Assembly: GCA_030835135.1 (NCBI GenBank) | Contig: JAUQWO010000051.1 | Coordinates: 62,001 to 126,000 of the forward strand | DNA from: Bacteroidota bacterium | GTDB taxonomy: Bacteria; Bacteroidota; Ignavibacteria; UBA10030; UBA6906 | Length of the DNA stretch: 64,000 bases | Direction of reading: 5' to 3' | Shown: positions 20,871-26,787 of the stretch, in pieces | Numbering within the stretch: the stretch's first letter is position 1 | Layout of the letters: the number at the start of each line of letters is the position of its first letter | The notes under the pieces: model-generated | The model's database searches: none | The model's input: the letters and a program-made list of their open reading frames with translations, nothing else | What the model was told of the DNA's origin: nothing | Position numbers and translations under genes: made by a program

Positions 20871-22816
20871 TGCCTGCACTCTCCCGTGCGCTCCGGATCC
20901 TTCTCCCGGCGGCGATGCTGGCGATGGCCGGATCTTCCGTGCAAGCGCAGGAGAGCATGCGGGAGGGCGAGACGGCGATCGCGGGGCCGGACTCGGTCCA
21001 GCGGACCAACACCGCGGGGATCCTGTTCGACAAGAACCTGAACACGTTCAACTGGCTCGGCCGCCTCGCGGTAGACACGGTTGCGGGACGAACGCGGTTC
21101 GGGGTCGGCGCGACCTACCTTTCGAACATCATTCAAACCGAGAACCCGGCGCCCGGTTCGGCGAGAACAAGCGAGAGTACGCAACAGAACTTCCGGCTGA
21201 TGCTCGCCCATCCGGTCAGCGAGCCGTTCGCGCTACACACACAATGGTCGTCCCTCATCTTCTCGGACAACCGCGGGAACGGGCTGAGCAATGCCTCCAA
21301 CCACACGCTGCTCGCCGGTGTCGATGTCAGCCCGTGGCCTTTCGTCACGCTCTCGCCTCTCGCGGGATACCGGTGGGACCGTCAGGGCGCCATCCATGAC
21401 CGCGGCCTCGCGCTCGACCTCGGCGCGGAGCTTCATCCTCTCGACTTCGATGGGTACCGGTTCGCCGGCGAAGGACATTTCCGGCGGGACAACCTCTCGC
21501 CCCGTGTGCTGACCAACCACATTGCCCAGGTCGGCGTGGAGAAGCGATTCAGTCCGGAAGCACGCGACAGCATGATGATGGCATTCCAGCAGACCGGACG
21601 GGAATTCTATCTTGCGGGTGACAGCACGATCGAAAGCCGGACCGACGACCTCTTCTCCTTCGCCAACCTGCTCTCGTACGATGTCAGCCGTTCATGGGGG
21701 GCCGACCTCTTCGTGAACGTGAACAGCCGCGGACTGGACAAGGACATGCGGCGACTGCGGCAGGATGCTTCGGACGAGGCGTCGTTCGACACGCGCATCG
21801 AGGAGTTCCGTCTCGATACGTACGCGCAGGTCTGGTATCAGGCGCCCGATGCCAGTTCCTCGGCGCACATCCGGCTCGGATACTCCGAACGGAATGAAAC
21901 GCATCGCGCGAAGGCACCGGCGGGAACGATGGCACCCAACATCGCCGTGCTGTTCGCCGAACGGAACCGGCAGGAGCAGTCCAAGGACAACGTCGCACGC
22001 AGGGTTGCCCTGTCGGGTGGCACATCACTCGATGTGTCGCCTCTGCACCGGGTCATGTTCGCCGGGTCGGCGACCATCCTGCGGTACGATACGCCGAGCG
22101 AGCTGAACCAGGAGGACCGTGATGAGCTGCTCGTGGCTCTGGCACTGGGCACGTGGCACCGGGTGAGCCGCGCCGTGGACATCGGGATCGCGCTGGACGG
22201 GACATACAGCCATCTGGTCTATCTGCTGAAGGAGCGGAGCGCCAACAATAACATCAACAGGGTCCTCCGGCTCTCCCCCCGGGTCATCTACCGGCCGGTG
22301 GAGTGGTTCACCAGCATCAACGGGTTCGAGGTCCTGGCCAATTACACGGTCTATGACTACGAAAAGCAGGTTGCCCTGGCCCGGAGCTTCTCCTACAGGC
22401 AGTTTTCCTGGATGGATTCCACCACGGTTGAGTTCACCGGTCGATTAGGACTTGATTTTTACGCCTATTTAAAGTTGTATGAACGGGGGATGCTTCGCTG
22501 GGACGAGTTTCTGGAACGGACCGAGAACTCCACGGTGGACCGGACATTCTCCGCGCAGGTGCGCTACGCCCCGGCCCCCGCGGTACTGGTGGCTCTGGGG
22601 GTGCGGTACTTCAGTCAGTCGCGGTATGTGTACAAGGACACGGTCCGCCGGCCGGACACGTTCTTCAGCAGCGTCGGACCGACGAGTCTGATCCGGTGGG
22701 ATGTGAGTGCGGCGAGCAGGTTATTGTTTCAGGGCTGGTACGAGCGGCGGAAGCAGTCGGACGGCACATTCCGCTCGCTGGCAAGCATGACGATGCAGGT
22801 CTTTCTCCACTTCTGA
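20867..22816 (+). CDS. Putative outer-membrane beta-barrel protein
   Basis: A 649-residue protein with an N-terminal signal peptide (hydrophobic LLPAAMLAMAGS, cleavage after VQA) and no globular domain that I recognise. The sequence alternates short amphipathic strands with polar turns and ends in Phe (MTMQVFLHF), the C-terminal signature of outer-membrane barrels recognised by the BAM machinery. The start overlaps the beta-CASP stop; ATGATG gives two possible starts (20867 or 20870). Function and cargo are unknown. Being coupled to a nuclease and a regulatory ATPase is unusual. Confidence 0.75.
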   Translation: MMPALSRALRILLPAAMLAMAGSSVQAQESMREGETAIAGPDSVQRTNTAGILFDKNLNTFNWLGRLAVDTVAGRTRFGVGATYLSNIIQTENPAPGSARTSESTQQNFRLMLAHPVSEPFALHTQWSSLIFSDNRGNGLSNASNHTLLAGVDVSPWPFVTLSPLAGYRWDRQGAIHDRGLALDLGAELHPLDFDGYRFAGEGHFRRDNLSPRVLTNHIAQVGVEKRFSPEARDSMMMAFQQTGREFYLAGDSTIESRTDDLFSFANLLSYDVSRSWGADLFVNVNSRGLDKDMRRLRQDASDEASFDTRIEEFRLDTYAQVWYQAPDASSSAHIRLGYSERNETHRAKAPAGTMAPNIAVLFAERNRQEQSKDNVARRVALSGGTSLDVSPLHRVMFAGSATILRYDTPSELNQEDRDELLVALALGTWHRVSRAVDIGIALDGTYSHLVYLLKERSANNNINRVLRLSPRVIYRPVEWFTSINGFEVLANYTVYDYEKQVALARSFSYRQFSWMDSTTVEFTGRLGLDFYAYLKLYERGMLRWDEFLERTENSTVDRTFSAQVRYAPAPAVLVALGVRYFSQSRYVYKDTVRRPDTFFSSVGPTSLIRWDVSAASRLLFQGWYERRKQSDGTFRSLASMTMQVFLHF

Positions 22817-22824
22817 GCACAGCA

Positions 22825-23250
22825 ATGCCGAAAGCACCCCGATCGATCTTCCGCCTCACTCTCCGGAGTGTTCCGAAGAGTGTCATGCGCGTTGAGGGCT
22901 ATCTGAACAAGATCAATGCCGTGGTCGGGCTTGACGAGATCGCGATGCACAAGCTGATGGTCTCACTGACGGAGGCCGTCAACAATGCGATCCTCCACGG
23001 CAACGCCTCCGATCCGACGAAACGCGTGAAAGTGTCGTGCGAGATCCTGCCCGGATGGCTGCTGTTCCAGATCAATGATGAGGGGAAAGGGTTCCGTGCG
23101 GAACAGGTACGGAATCCATTGAAGGAAGAGAATCTGCACCGCGCGAGCGGACGCGGCGTATTCCTGATGCGCACGCTCATGGATAAGGTGGAGTTCACCC
23201 ACGCGCCGGAGGGAATGCAGGTGCGCCTCTGGCTCAACACGAACAAGTGA
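22825..23250 (+). CDS. Anti-sigma-factor-type histidine-kinase-like ATPase (RsbW/SpoIIAB family)
   Basis: A 141-residue single GHKL ATPase domain. The N-box is EAVNNAILHGN, the G1 box NDEGKGF and the G2 region GRGVFLM. Proteins of this kind phosphorylate anti-sigma-factor antagonists and bind sigma factors in partner-switching modules. No antagonist (STAS) or sigma gene is in the window. It starts 8 bases after the barrel gene and converges on the lipoprotein gene 3 bases past its stop, with no terminator between them. Confidence 0.9.
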   Translation: MPKAPRSIFRLTLRSVPKSVMRVEGYLNKINAVVGLDEIAMHKLMVSLTEAVNNAILHGNASDPTKRVKVSCEILPGWLLFQINDEGKGFRAEQVRNPLKEENLHRASGRGVFLMRTLMDKVEFTHAPEGMQVRLWLNTNK

Positions 23251-23253
23251 CGA

Positions 23254-23961
23254 TCACCCCCCTGCCCTGATCTCCGTCAGGGTCAGTTCCGTCCCCCCGA
23301 ACCCATCATCAGGTTCCAGCCAGATGACCGGGAATGCCGTCGGGTCATCCGCGAGCCAGAAGGTGTACCGCATGTGAGGCCCCGCGAGTTCCACGCGGTA
23401 GGCGGGGATGACCTTCTGCTGCCCCTTCACCTTCACGGCATACATGTCCGGTGTACCGGAGATGAGCCCGTAGACCGCTTCCGTCCTGGCGGTATCGAGA
23501 TGGCCCACGAAGAACGACCTGTTCGATCCGATCGACACTGCCGCGATGCGGTCCCAGGATTCAGGAAGTGCGGGGAGTCTGCGGATGCGTGCGATCGTGG
23601 CAAGGAACCCGTGCCGGTAGATGTCGCCGTTCGACGCCACCGCAACCGTCACCGTGTCGAAGACCGACGCACTGTCGCGCAGCACGCTGGCACTATCCAC
23701 GAACACGGTCCCCACGCCGACCCCCGGCACGGGGAAGCCGGTACTCAGGACCTTCCATCGGGCTCTGGAGCGCGAGGAGTATATGGGGTAGCCGTACTCG
23801 TCGGTAAGGAGGGCATCGTACAGGAACACGTCACCCGCGGTGAACACGGGCGTGACGGAGATGGGGGTGGTTGCGTACGGGGTCTCATCCTGCCGGCAGG
23901 AGACCGACAGGAGGCCCAGGACAAAAAAGGCTACCCGGAGGGTAGCCTTGATCGTTTTCAC
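23254..23961 (-). CDS. Putative lipoprotein, unknown function
   Basis: A 235-residue predicted lipoprotein: a basic start (MKTIKATLR), a hydrophobic stretch VAFFVLGLLS and a lipobox-like LSVSC (Cys ~22). The mature part has no domain I recognise. It follows mdh on the same strand; the start is GTG, 15 bases after the mdh stop, with AGGAG overlapping the stop. The signal-peptide codons contain a complete Rho-independent terminator (see the terminator entry), so expression may depend on read-through or ribosome position. If the terminator is fully efficient, another promoter would be needed. Confidence 0.75.
   Translation of the reverse strand: MKTIKATLRVAFFVLGLLSVSCRQDETPYATTPISVTPVFTAGDVFLYDALLTDEYGYPIYSSRSRARWKVLSTGFPVPGVGVGTVFVDSASVLRDSASVFDTVTVAVASNGDIYRHGFLATIARIRRLPALPESWDRIAAVSIGSNRSFFVGHLDTARTEAVYGLISGTPDMYAVKVKGQQKVIPAYRVELAGPHMRYTFWLADDPTAFPVIWLEPDDGFGGTELTLTEIRAGG
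23922..23949 (-). terminator. Rho-independent terminator of the rplU-rpmA-mdh transcript, inside a coding region
   Basis: On the minus strand AAGGCTACCC (23949-23940) pairs perfectly with GGGTAGCCTT (23936-23927) around a 3-base loop, and runs into six T residues (23928-23923). This is the strongest intrinsic terminator in the window. It lies at codons 5 to 13 of the lipoprotein gene, beginning 27 bases after the mdh stop codon. Confidence 0.85.
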
Positions 23962-23976
23962 GGTGATGCAGAGCTC

Positions 23977-25184
<1,208 letters not shown>

Positions 25185-25193
25185 GACGCGCCT

Positions 25194-25505
25194 CTACTTG
25201 CCGATGCTGAGAATTTCGATCTGAGAATATCCCTGACGATGTCCGCGCTTCACACGGTATCCCTTGCGACGCTTCTTCTTGAACACGATCACCTTGTCCA
25301 TCTTGGCATGTTCAACAAGGGTCGCCTCGACGACGGCACCGCTGACGAGCGGGCGGCCGACTGCAACGGCCTTCTCGTCGCCAACCATCAGGACACGGTC
25401 CAGACGGATCTTCGTTCCGGGTTTCTCGTTGAGGGTGGGCACCATGATCTTGTCTTTCGGTGCCACTCTGTATTGCTTTCCAGCGACTTCAACGACGGCG
25501 AACAT
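25194..25505 (-). CDS. rplU: 50S ribosomal protein L21
   Basis: A 103-residue L21 ([14 protein letters not shown] at the start, [16 protein letters not shown] near the end, binding 23S rRNA). It leads the rplU-rpmA-mdh operon. A consensus promoter lies at 25536-25564, which gives an untranslated leader of roughly 25 bases, and a GAGAGGA Shine-Dalgarno precedes the ATG. Confidence 0.98.
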
Positions 25506-25535
25506 CGATGTATTCCTCTCTCATATAGGAATGTA

Positions 25536-25564
25536 AATGTACCAAATGATCGCAAAAAAGTCAA
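25536..25564 (-). promoter_or_regulatory. Sigma-70-type promoter of the rplU operon
   Basis: On the minus strand TTGACT (25564-25559) and TACATT (25541-25536) are separated by 17 bases. The spacer is AT-rich. The rest of the 310-base gap 25506-25815 holds the terminator of the rsmA-PAP2 unit and no gene. Confidence 0.8.
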
Positions 25565-25721
25565 TAATTCGACGCCAAAAAGGTGAGGACCCCCTCCGGC
25601 AGATACGCCGGATCTCCTTCTGAATGTCCTATGAATCAGCCTTTTTCATCAGATTAGGCCAATGAGCGCATCAGAGCACCGGAACGCAGTTTCCCGGGCG
25701 GAGGAAAGCCTTTCCATGGTG

Positions 25722-25756
25722 AAAAAAGACGCGCCGTCGGGGGGCACGGGCCCCCC
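25722..25756 (-). terminator. Candidate terminator of the rsmA-PAP2 operon
   Basis: On the minus strand GGGGGGC (25756-25750) pairs with GCCCCCC (25745-25739) around a 4-base loop, followed by a short GACG/CGTC stem and six T residues (25727-25722). Confidence 0.55.
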
Positions 25757-25815
25757 TGCACGACATGCCTGCAGCACCGCCAAACCACGGGCCTGGAACC
25801 GGGAACGGCCGGCCG

Positions 25816-26787
25816 TCAATACCAATCATCCCTCGCCCACGGATGCACACGGTCCATGGTCCCGATCGTCCTCCGCAGGAAGACGTACAGCCGGGGGGCA
25901 AGGAAGAGACAGACGACCGCGAAGACCGCCCCGCCGAGCACATCCACCACATAGTGGTACCGCTGATACACCGTGGCGACGATCAACAGGACCCCGGTGA
26001 TCAGCACGACGTGCCGGGAGCCAAGCCGGTAGCGCACCGCCATCCATATCAACACAAGCGTCATCATCGTGTGGCCGCTCGGAAAGACGTCGCGCTGCGT
26101 CGCCGCCATGGCCGCCGCACTGCTCACGCCCATGGGGATGGACTCCCCCCAGTTCACGAACCACCGCAACGCGGGGGTCAGCCACAGCCCGGGGATCTCC
26201 GCATCCAGCGAATTGAAATCGTGCAGCGTATACCGCGGCCCCACGGCGGGCAACGCGAAATAGCCCACATACGACAGATAGAATCCGAACACGCAGGTGA
26301 ACATGAAGAAATGGAACTCGCTCCGCGGGTGTTTCTTGTAGAGTTCGTACCCGACGATCAGGAACAGCACATAGAAGAGCGTGTACGCGATCATCAGTAC
26401 TTCGGTGATCACCGGATGGCTGAACTGCTGCAGCCACTGCGTCGGGTGCACCCCGAACAACCAGTGATCGGCGGCGATGAGCCAGTCGTCGTAGTCGATC
26501 CCCTGATGGATCGGCTTGATCATGTAGTACAGCTCTTTGAACGTAAGGAACACCAGCGGCGGTACGTACCAGTCGTGGAGCAACGCCAGCACCTTCGAGG
26601 TGCTCGCCTCACGCCACGCGGCAAGGCCATGGACCGCCGCGATGATCAGGACATTGATGAGCACCATCACCCACCACCCCGGGATCCGGCCCGCGAACAC
26701 GAAGTTCACGATCGTGAGGAGCGTGAAAAATGCAACGATCACCACATCGGTGGAGTGCAGTCGCGCTGCCGGGGTGCGGAATGTCAT
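25816..26787 (-). CDS. PAP2-superfamily membrane phosphatase / phosphotransferase
   Basis: A 323-residue polytopic membrane protein with about six transmembrane helices. The PAP2 catalytic signature is visible as FPSGHTMM followed by YQRYHYVVDVLGG; the first motif (KX6RP) is replaced by a PAVGPRYTL segment as in the PAP2_3/inositol-phosphoceramide-synthase-like subgroup. Such proteins transfer or remove lipid phosphates at the membrane. In an FCB organism, sphingolipid head-group transfer is possible, but not shown. The start overlaps the rsmA stop by ATGA and uses the GGAGG at the end of rsmA. Confidence 0.85.
   Translation of the reverse strand: MTFRTPAARLHSTDVVIVAFFTLLTIVNFVFAGRIPGWWVMVLINVLIIAAVHGLAAWREASTSKVLALLHDWYVPPLVFLTFKELYYMIKPIHQGIDYDDWLIAADHWLFGVHPTQWLQQFSHPVITEVLMIAYTLFYVLFLIVGYELYKKHPRSEFHFFMFTCVFGFYLSYVGYFALPAVGPRYTLHDFNSLDAEIPGLWLTPALRWFVNWGESIPMGVSSAAAMAATQRDVFPSGHTMMTLVLIWMAVRYRLGSRHVVLITGVLLIVATVYQRYHYVVDVLGGAVFAVVCLFLAPRLYVFLRRTIGTMDRVHPWARDDWY

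Follow-up and report, generated by a model that had tools for sequence, protein, structure and literature searches.

A conserved putative operon terminator encoded in the signal-peptide codons of the following lipoprotein gene in a family of Ignavibacteria

The window that we analysed is a stretch of 64,000 nt from a genome in a family of uncultured Ignavibacteria, and the genes and features of the locus described here are on its minus strand. The first gene of the operon is rplU (25194..25505) for ribosomal protein L21, followed by rpmA (24930..25184) for ribosomal protein L27, both named by their recognisable sequences. A motif-based scan gives a promoter-like site, TTGACT-17-TACATT, upstream of rplU (25564-25536). 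The third gene is mdh (23977..24900), for a malate dehydrogenase of 307 aa with Pfam matches to Ldh_1_N (1.2e-41) and Ldh_1_C (4.2e-33), and with orthologs upstream of the lipoprotein gene in relatives. The TAG stop codon of mdh (23979-23977) shares bases with AGGAG (23974..23978), on direct reading a Shine-Dalgarno-like sequence 12 nt before the GTG start (23961-23959) of a gene for a lipoprotein of 235 aa (23254..23961, coding score 54). This GTG is 15 nt past the mdh stop codon.

Genes were called by codon usage, as long antisense open reading frames make length unusable for this purpose. One such frame, of 514 aa on the plus strand (23374-24918), is antisense to both mdh and the lipoprotein gene; it is a by-product of the GC-rich code and misleads gene calling by ORF length. 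At its far end the lipoprotein gene converges with a plus-strand gene that ends at 23250 and by eye is anti-sigma-factor/HATPase-like. The gap between the two is only 3 nt (23250-23254), and no intrinsic terminator is listed for either strand at this convergence.

The first codons of the lipoprotein gene, VKTIKATLRVAFFVLGLLSVS-C (23896..23961), encode a bacterial-lipoprotein signal peptide with the lipobox LSVSC, the Cys codon being at 23898-23896, and the Cys-Arg is invariant across 15 aligned homologues. A Pfam search assigned the lipoprotein to no family. Comparison of the predicted model with PDB 4fvs (E = 1.2e-6, TM 0.4) suggests a YmcC/LolA-like fold, with TM-scores that are weak.

The preliminary description of this DNA had placed a terminator in these codons, with a stem of 10 perfect base pairs, a 3-base loop and six Ts covering codons 5-13 (KATLRVAFF), and it is accurate in each respect, including the frame set by the GTG at 23961. 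The 5' arm AAGGCTACCC (23940..23949, codons 5-8) and the 3' arm GGGTAGCCTT (23927..23936, codons 9-12), both located by pattern and fold, flank the loop TCC (23939-23937, direct reading), and the six Ts (23923..23928) encode Phe-Phe. The stem ends in the first two of these Ts, which pair with the leading AA and leave four unpaired Ts, so that the whole hairpin (23949-23923) reads AAGGCTACCC-TCC-GGGTAGCCTT-TTTT. Six of the 10 pairs are GC, and the fold is -16.6 kcal/mol with z = -5.2, equalled by none of 200 dinucleotide shuffles. We thus have a GC-rich hairpin followed directly by a U-rich tract, as in an intrinsic terminator. As there is no in-frame stop codon between the GTG and the U-tract, termination there would leave an open frame, as in the arfA and brfA genes discussed below.

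Two other identities for the hairpin were set aside. A riboswitch or other known RNA was rejected, as a search of 22500-26000 with the Rfam covariance models gave no match at E <= 1, and so was a mobile or repeated element, as the stem is found only once in the 4.9-Mb genome even when two mismatches are allowed.

Among 60 relatives the lipoprotein is restricted to the window's own family, where we count 17 loci, leaving out a weak and unlinked match in G006. At every locus with visible upstream DNA it is mdh that lies directly upstream, and in G013 and G014 mdh is present without the lipoprotein gene. Comparison with related genomes had been proposed in the preliminary description as a check, and stem and signal peptide are indeed kept together: the hairpin and U-rich tract are within the signal-peptide codons at 13 of the 17 loci, in 12 genomes and six of the eight genera. 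The distance from the mdh stop codon to the first base of these embedded stems is 19 to 31 nt (except in G016, whose contig stops short of mdh), and from the end of the stem to the lipobox Cys codon it is 25-35 nt, the latter distance for G002 being set from separate readings and not from the automatic Cys assignment. Their dG values are from -16 to -37 (13 loci). The stem sequences themselves are unrelated between genera, with AAGGCTACCC in the window, AAGGGCAACCC in G002, GGAGAGCGG in G003, AAAGCGGAC in G004 and GGGAGGGGG in G005, and those of G010 (AAGGGCGACCC) and genus g7 (GGAGAGCC) are again unlike the others.

The exceptions are informative. In G012 and G017, both members of genus g11, mdh is followed by a free-standing terminator, and the downstream gene, which has its own separate start, keeps its signal peptide but lacks the coding hairpin. 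In G019 the coding hairpin is kept and the U-tract is degraded, and G007 has no hairpin but retains the lipoprotein gene, which tells us that the hairpin is not essential for the mdh-lipoprotein pair. The U-tracts are short or interrupted in G005, G004, G016 and G010, and for that reason termination efficiency may be low in these four.

Two individual loci need comment. G020 has two differing copies of the mdh-lipoprotein junction, L013 and L018, and with an assembly contamination of 4% these are probably from two strains or species binned together. At L008 of G003 (about 1460-1475) the 5' arm of the terminator includes GGAGAG, a good Shine-Dalgarno sequence eight nt before an ATG that is itself inside the hairpin (MARVARTFAPALLFVC...), and to judge from the sequence this stem may also hide a start site.

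With regard to origin, the mdh genes of Ignavibacteria and Chlorobi outside the family are mostly followed by an ordinary intrinsic terminator that starts at +13 to +54 from the stop codon, and their neighbouring genes are unrelated. Remote homologues of the lipoprotein are found in other families of the class, and in five cases (L065, L066, L071, L075 and L077) they adjoin mdh, which indicates that the linkage of the two genes is old. The gaps in these five are 136-184 nt, and three of them contain a hairpin with a U-rich tract. With separate terminators in the outgroups and gaps of this length, it appears to be the window's family that joined the mdh terminator to the signal peptide of the lipoprotein. 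The simplest account is a collapse of the gap between mdh and the lipoprotein gene in the ancestor of the family, by which the mdh terminator came to form the first part of the lipoprotein gene. Genus g11 either separated terminator and gene later or retained the old state, the mdh tree being poorly resolved at its base.

We think it probable, from the sequence comparisons, that the hairpin is a working intrinsic terminator of the rplU-rpmA-mdh operon that has fused with the beginning of the lipoprotein gene, the lipoprotein itself being made from read-through transcripts. The A/G-rich 5' arm provides the Lys, Arg and small residues of the n-region, and the 3' arm and U-tract the Ala, Leu and Phe of the hydrophobic core. 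Most polymerases would stop in the U-tract and so end the mdh message, and a minority would read through to give full-length lipoprotein mRNA, so that the terminator would act as a leaky gate that keeps the lipoprotein low in comparison with mdh. Re-initiation 2-16 nt downstream by ribosomes that have completed mdh may modulate the ratio. The terminated messages would include the beginning of the lipoprotein frame, open and lacking a stop codon, and be expected substrates for tmRNA, and the genome does have a tmRNA gene.

The dependence on read-through follows from the structure of the gene, and the two findings that the preliminary description had named as fatal to its proposal, a promoter inside the gene and a later start codon, were looked for and not found. 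In the window gene there is no in-frame ATG, GTG or TTG between the U-tract and the Cys codon, so that a later start is rejected and the gene cannot do without its first codons. No transcript can include the complete signal-peptide sequence without crossing the hairpin. A promoter that lay inside the gene and past the hairpin could not supply the signal peptide. The promoter motif of the Bacteroidota type is TAnnTTTG, and in a motif scan, where absence is weak evidence, it was present in no embedded locus between mdh and the gene, so that a promoter in that position was also put aside on this weak evidence. The motif is present just after the separate terminator in G017.

The preliminary description had offered two mechanisms, and it is the first, a terminator with read-through, that gains from the ordinary terminators after mdh in the outgroups and from their separate state in the distant homologues. 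The second was a translation-controlled attenuator, in which ribosomes starting on the lipoprotein gene, or re-initiating after mdh, cover the 5' arm and block the hairpin, so that expression of the gene requires translation to keep pace with RNA polymerase. The hairpin does lie within translated codons, the GTG of the window is 12 nt before the stem so that an initiating ribosome could cover part of the arm, and the mdh stop and lipoprotein start are near enough for coupling. There are also precedents in the pyrBI leader (described in PMC4824070) and in bmrB of bmrBCD (PMC4191407), which show that translation through a coding terminator can be regulatory; translated codons span the terminator, so that ribosome position could decide the outcome. 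However a dedicated attenuator needs an antiterminator or a leader peptide, and neither was found. Folding of 12 genomes in context gave no conserved antiterminator pairing of the 5' arm, whose partner is the 3' arm in 11 of the 12, and the Rfam search gave no regulatory element. In pyrBI and bmrB the codons are those of a dispensable leader peptide, with predicted antiterminator structures for bmrB, whereas here the only ORF is that of the 235-aa lipoprotein, the regulated protein itself, and the hairpin would also end the upstream operon. The distance from start to stem also differs among genomes, and in a close laboratory analogue, with a terminator 30 bp past the AUG of a second cistron, initiation cut termination by only about 10% (PMC4824070). 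We thus favour the leaky gate and regard the attenuator, a proposal left unsupported by these comparisons, as unlikely.

It might also be argued that the hairpin arose as a by-product of encoding a signal peptide and has no role as RNA, the Lys and Arg codons (AAG, AGG) of the n-region being by chance complementary to the Leu/Phe codons (CTT, CCT, TTT) of the core. A match to the generic terminator pattern proves nothing alone, with six observed in the 8-kb neighbourhood and 5.3 expected in shuffles, and weak terminator-like hairpins are not rare, being present by loose criteria in the first 100 nt of 33 of 349 called genes, a background against which a single case carries little weight. Permuted codons also sometimes yield hairpins with dG of -9 or better. 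The strength observed is seldom reached, however. When the window signal peptide was recoded with genome codon usage an equal or better terminator was obtained in only 1 of 600 trials, and with its own codons permuted in 22 of 600; strict criteria give only 27 terminators in 433 kb of the source genome, both strands included. The observation in the window is well above chance, and the strongest argument is to be found in the relatives.

Across the embedded loci, synonymous recoding seldom equals the natural hairpin: with genome codon usage it does so in 0-6% of trials, and when own codons are permuted, in 0-8%. Taking one genome per genus, Fisher combined p values are 6.8e-9 and 2.1e-6 respectively, both optimistic because the relatives share ancestry. 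The by-product explanation must also accommodate a hairpin at a near-fixed place in 13 of 17 loci, formed by unrelated stem sequences that nevertheless pair, and the signal peptide of g11, kept without a hairpin where a separate terminator is present.

Covariation was read from a codon-matched alignment of five genomes of g1/g9, in which 100% of stem cells pair, as against 34-70% when the alignment is slid by 1-3 columns. In two stem pairs both partners change, and one of these pairs is swapped from U-A to A-U by a synonymous codon change in each arm, GCT/GCA (Ala) and GTA/GTT (Val). With only five sequences the compensatory changes were matched in 42 of 500 shuffles, so that support for a structure kept by compensatory change is modest, and in genus g7 alone the covariation counts were no better than in shuffles. 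In g1/g9 the codons for unchanged residues are conserved more in the hairpin (21/29) than elsewhere (232/504; p = 0.007), and in g7 codon conservation in the hairpin is not raised. Across the 13 loci Phe in the U-tract is encoded by TTT in 12 of 18 cases, compared with 49 of 144 elsewhere in the gene (p = 0.01). On this evidence we find it improbable that the hairpin is a by-product.

Still less probable, despite the GGAGAG and ATG of G003, where the stem could hide the start, and the poor U-tracts in a few members, is that the hairpin is selected but acts otherwise, hiding the start region or protecting or processing the mdh 3' end while transcription runs on, as a U-rich tract follows the hairpin directly at 13 of 13 loci, the preference for TTT over TTC is needless for translation control, and ordinary terminators are at the same spot after outgroup mdh.

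A terminator near the 5' end of a coding region is usually put down to chance or met only in leader peptides. Our preferred reading, a merged terminator with read-through, has support from E. coli. In a test system termination was maximal once stop codon and stem were separated by over about 27 nt, and a terminator placed within the first 100 bp of a coding sequence functions (PMC4824070); the spacing in the window is 27 nt. In plasmid W48, with an artificial tricistronic operon, a terminator 48 bp past a stop codon and 30 bp past the next start codon worked, and translation lowered expression of the upstream gene, which was attributed to non-stop decay; in this work stop-less transcripts halved expression of the upstream gene (PMC4824070). 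The arrangement, shortly after one stop and the next start, is like that proposed here, but W48 is an E. coli construct and did not evolve to encode a signal peptide. ORF-internal 3' ends are also common in E. coli (PMC7815308).

The arfA and brfA genes have an intrinsic terminator inside the coding sequence and are regulated through non-stop mRNA (PMC8012679). The likeness is that a terminator-like hairpin in the reading frame would truncate the mRNA without a stop codon. However theirs lies toward the 3' end of a gene for a small rescue factor, and it is the truncated form that is active, whereas here codons 5-13 are involved and the product would be a signal-peptide fragment of about 13 residues, for which a function under tmRNA control is unlikely. 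In clostridial ABC importers internal operon terminators set stoichiometry by partial read-through (PMC9045158), and a partial terminator between mdh and the lipoprotein gene would tune their ratio in a similar way; the present one, however, is coding sequence of the downstream gene and not a separate element.

Coding-sequence terminators as such are known, in the pyrBI leader, bmrB, arfA and brfA. A literature search of partial coverage gave no account of an operon terminator that is conserved and written in the signal-peptide codons of the following gene. More tentatively, we suggest that terminator and signal peptide could be one element, with n-region codons complementary to those of the Phe/Leu core, so that an operon terminator could be captured as an export signal. 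The lipoprotein level would then be tied to read-through, and perhaps re-initiation, of an operon for central metabolism and ribosomal proteins, and non-stop decay would feed back on mdh. This wider proposal is possible, but we hold it with much less confidence than termination with read-through.

The family provides a natural example of DNA with two uses, as putative operon terminator and as signal-peptide codons, and the separate, decayed and lost states in close relatives are natural controls. It offers a system for testing how transcription can end within a gene whose expression is nevertheless required, and how ribosome rescue responds. It is also a caution for annotation pipelines that take terminators and coding sequence to be mutually exclusive.

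There is a possible second and weaker case of an embedded terminator in the same genome, at C17:134687-134752 (L187:8687-8752, minus strand), where the signal-peptide codons of another lipoprotein (...LLGSFVLGSC..., which by eye is LptE-like) contain a long hairpin followed by a short T-rich tail.
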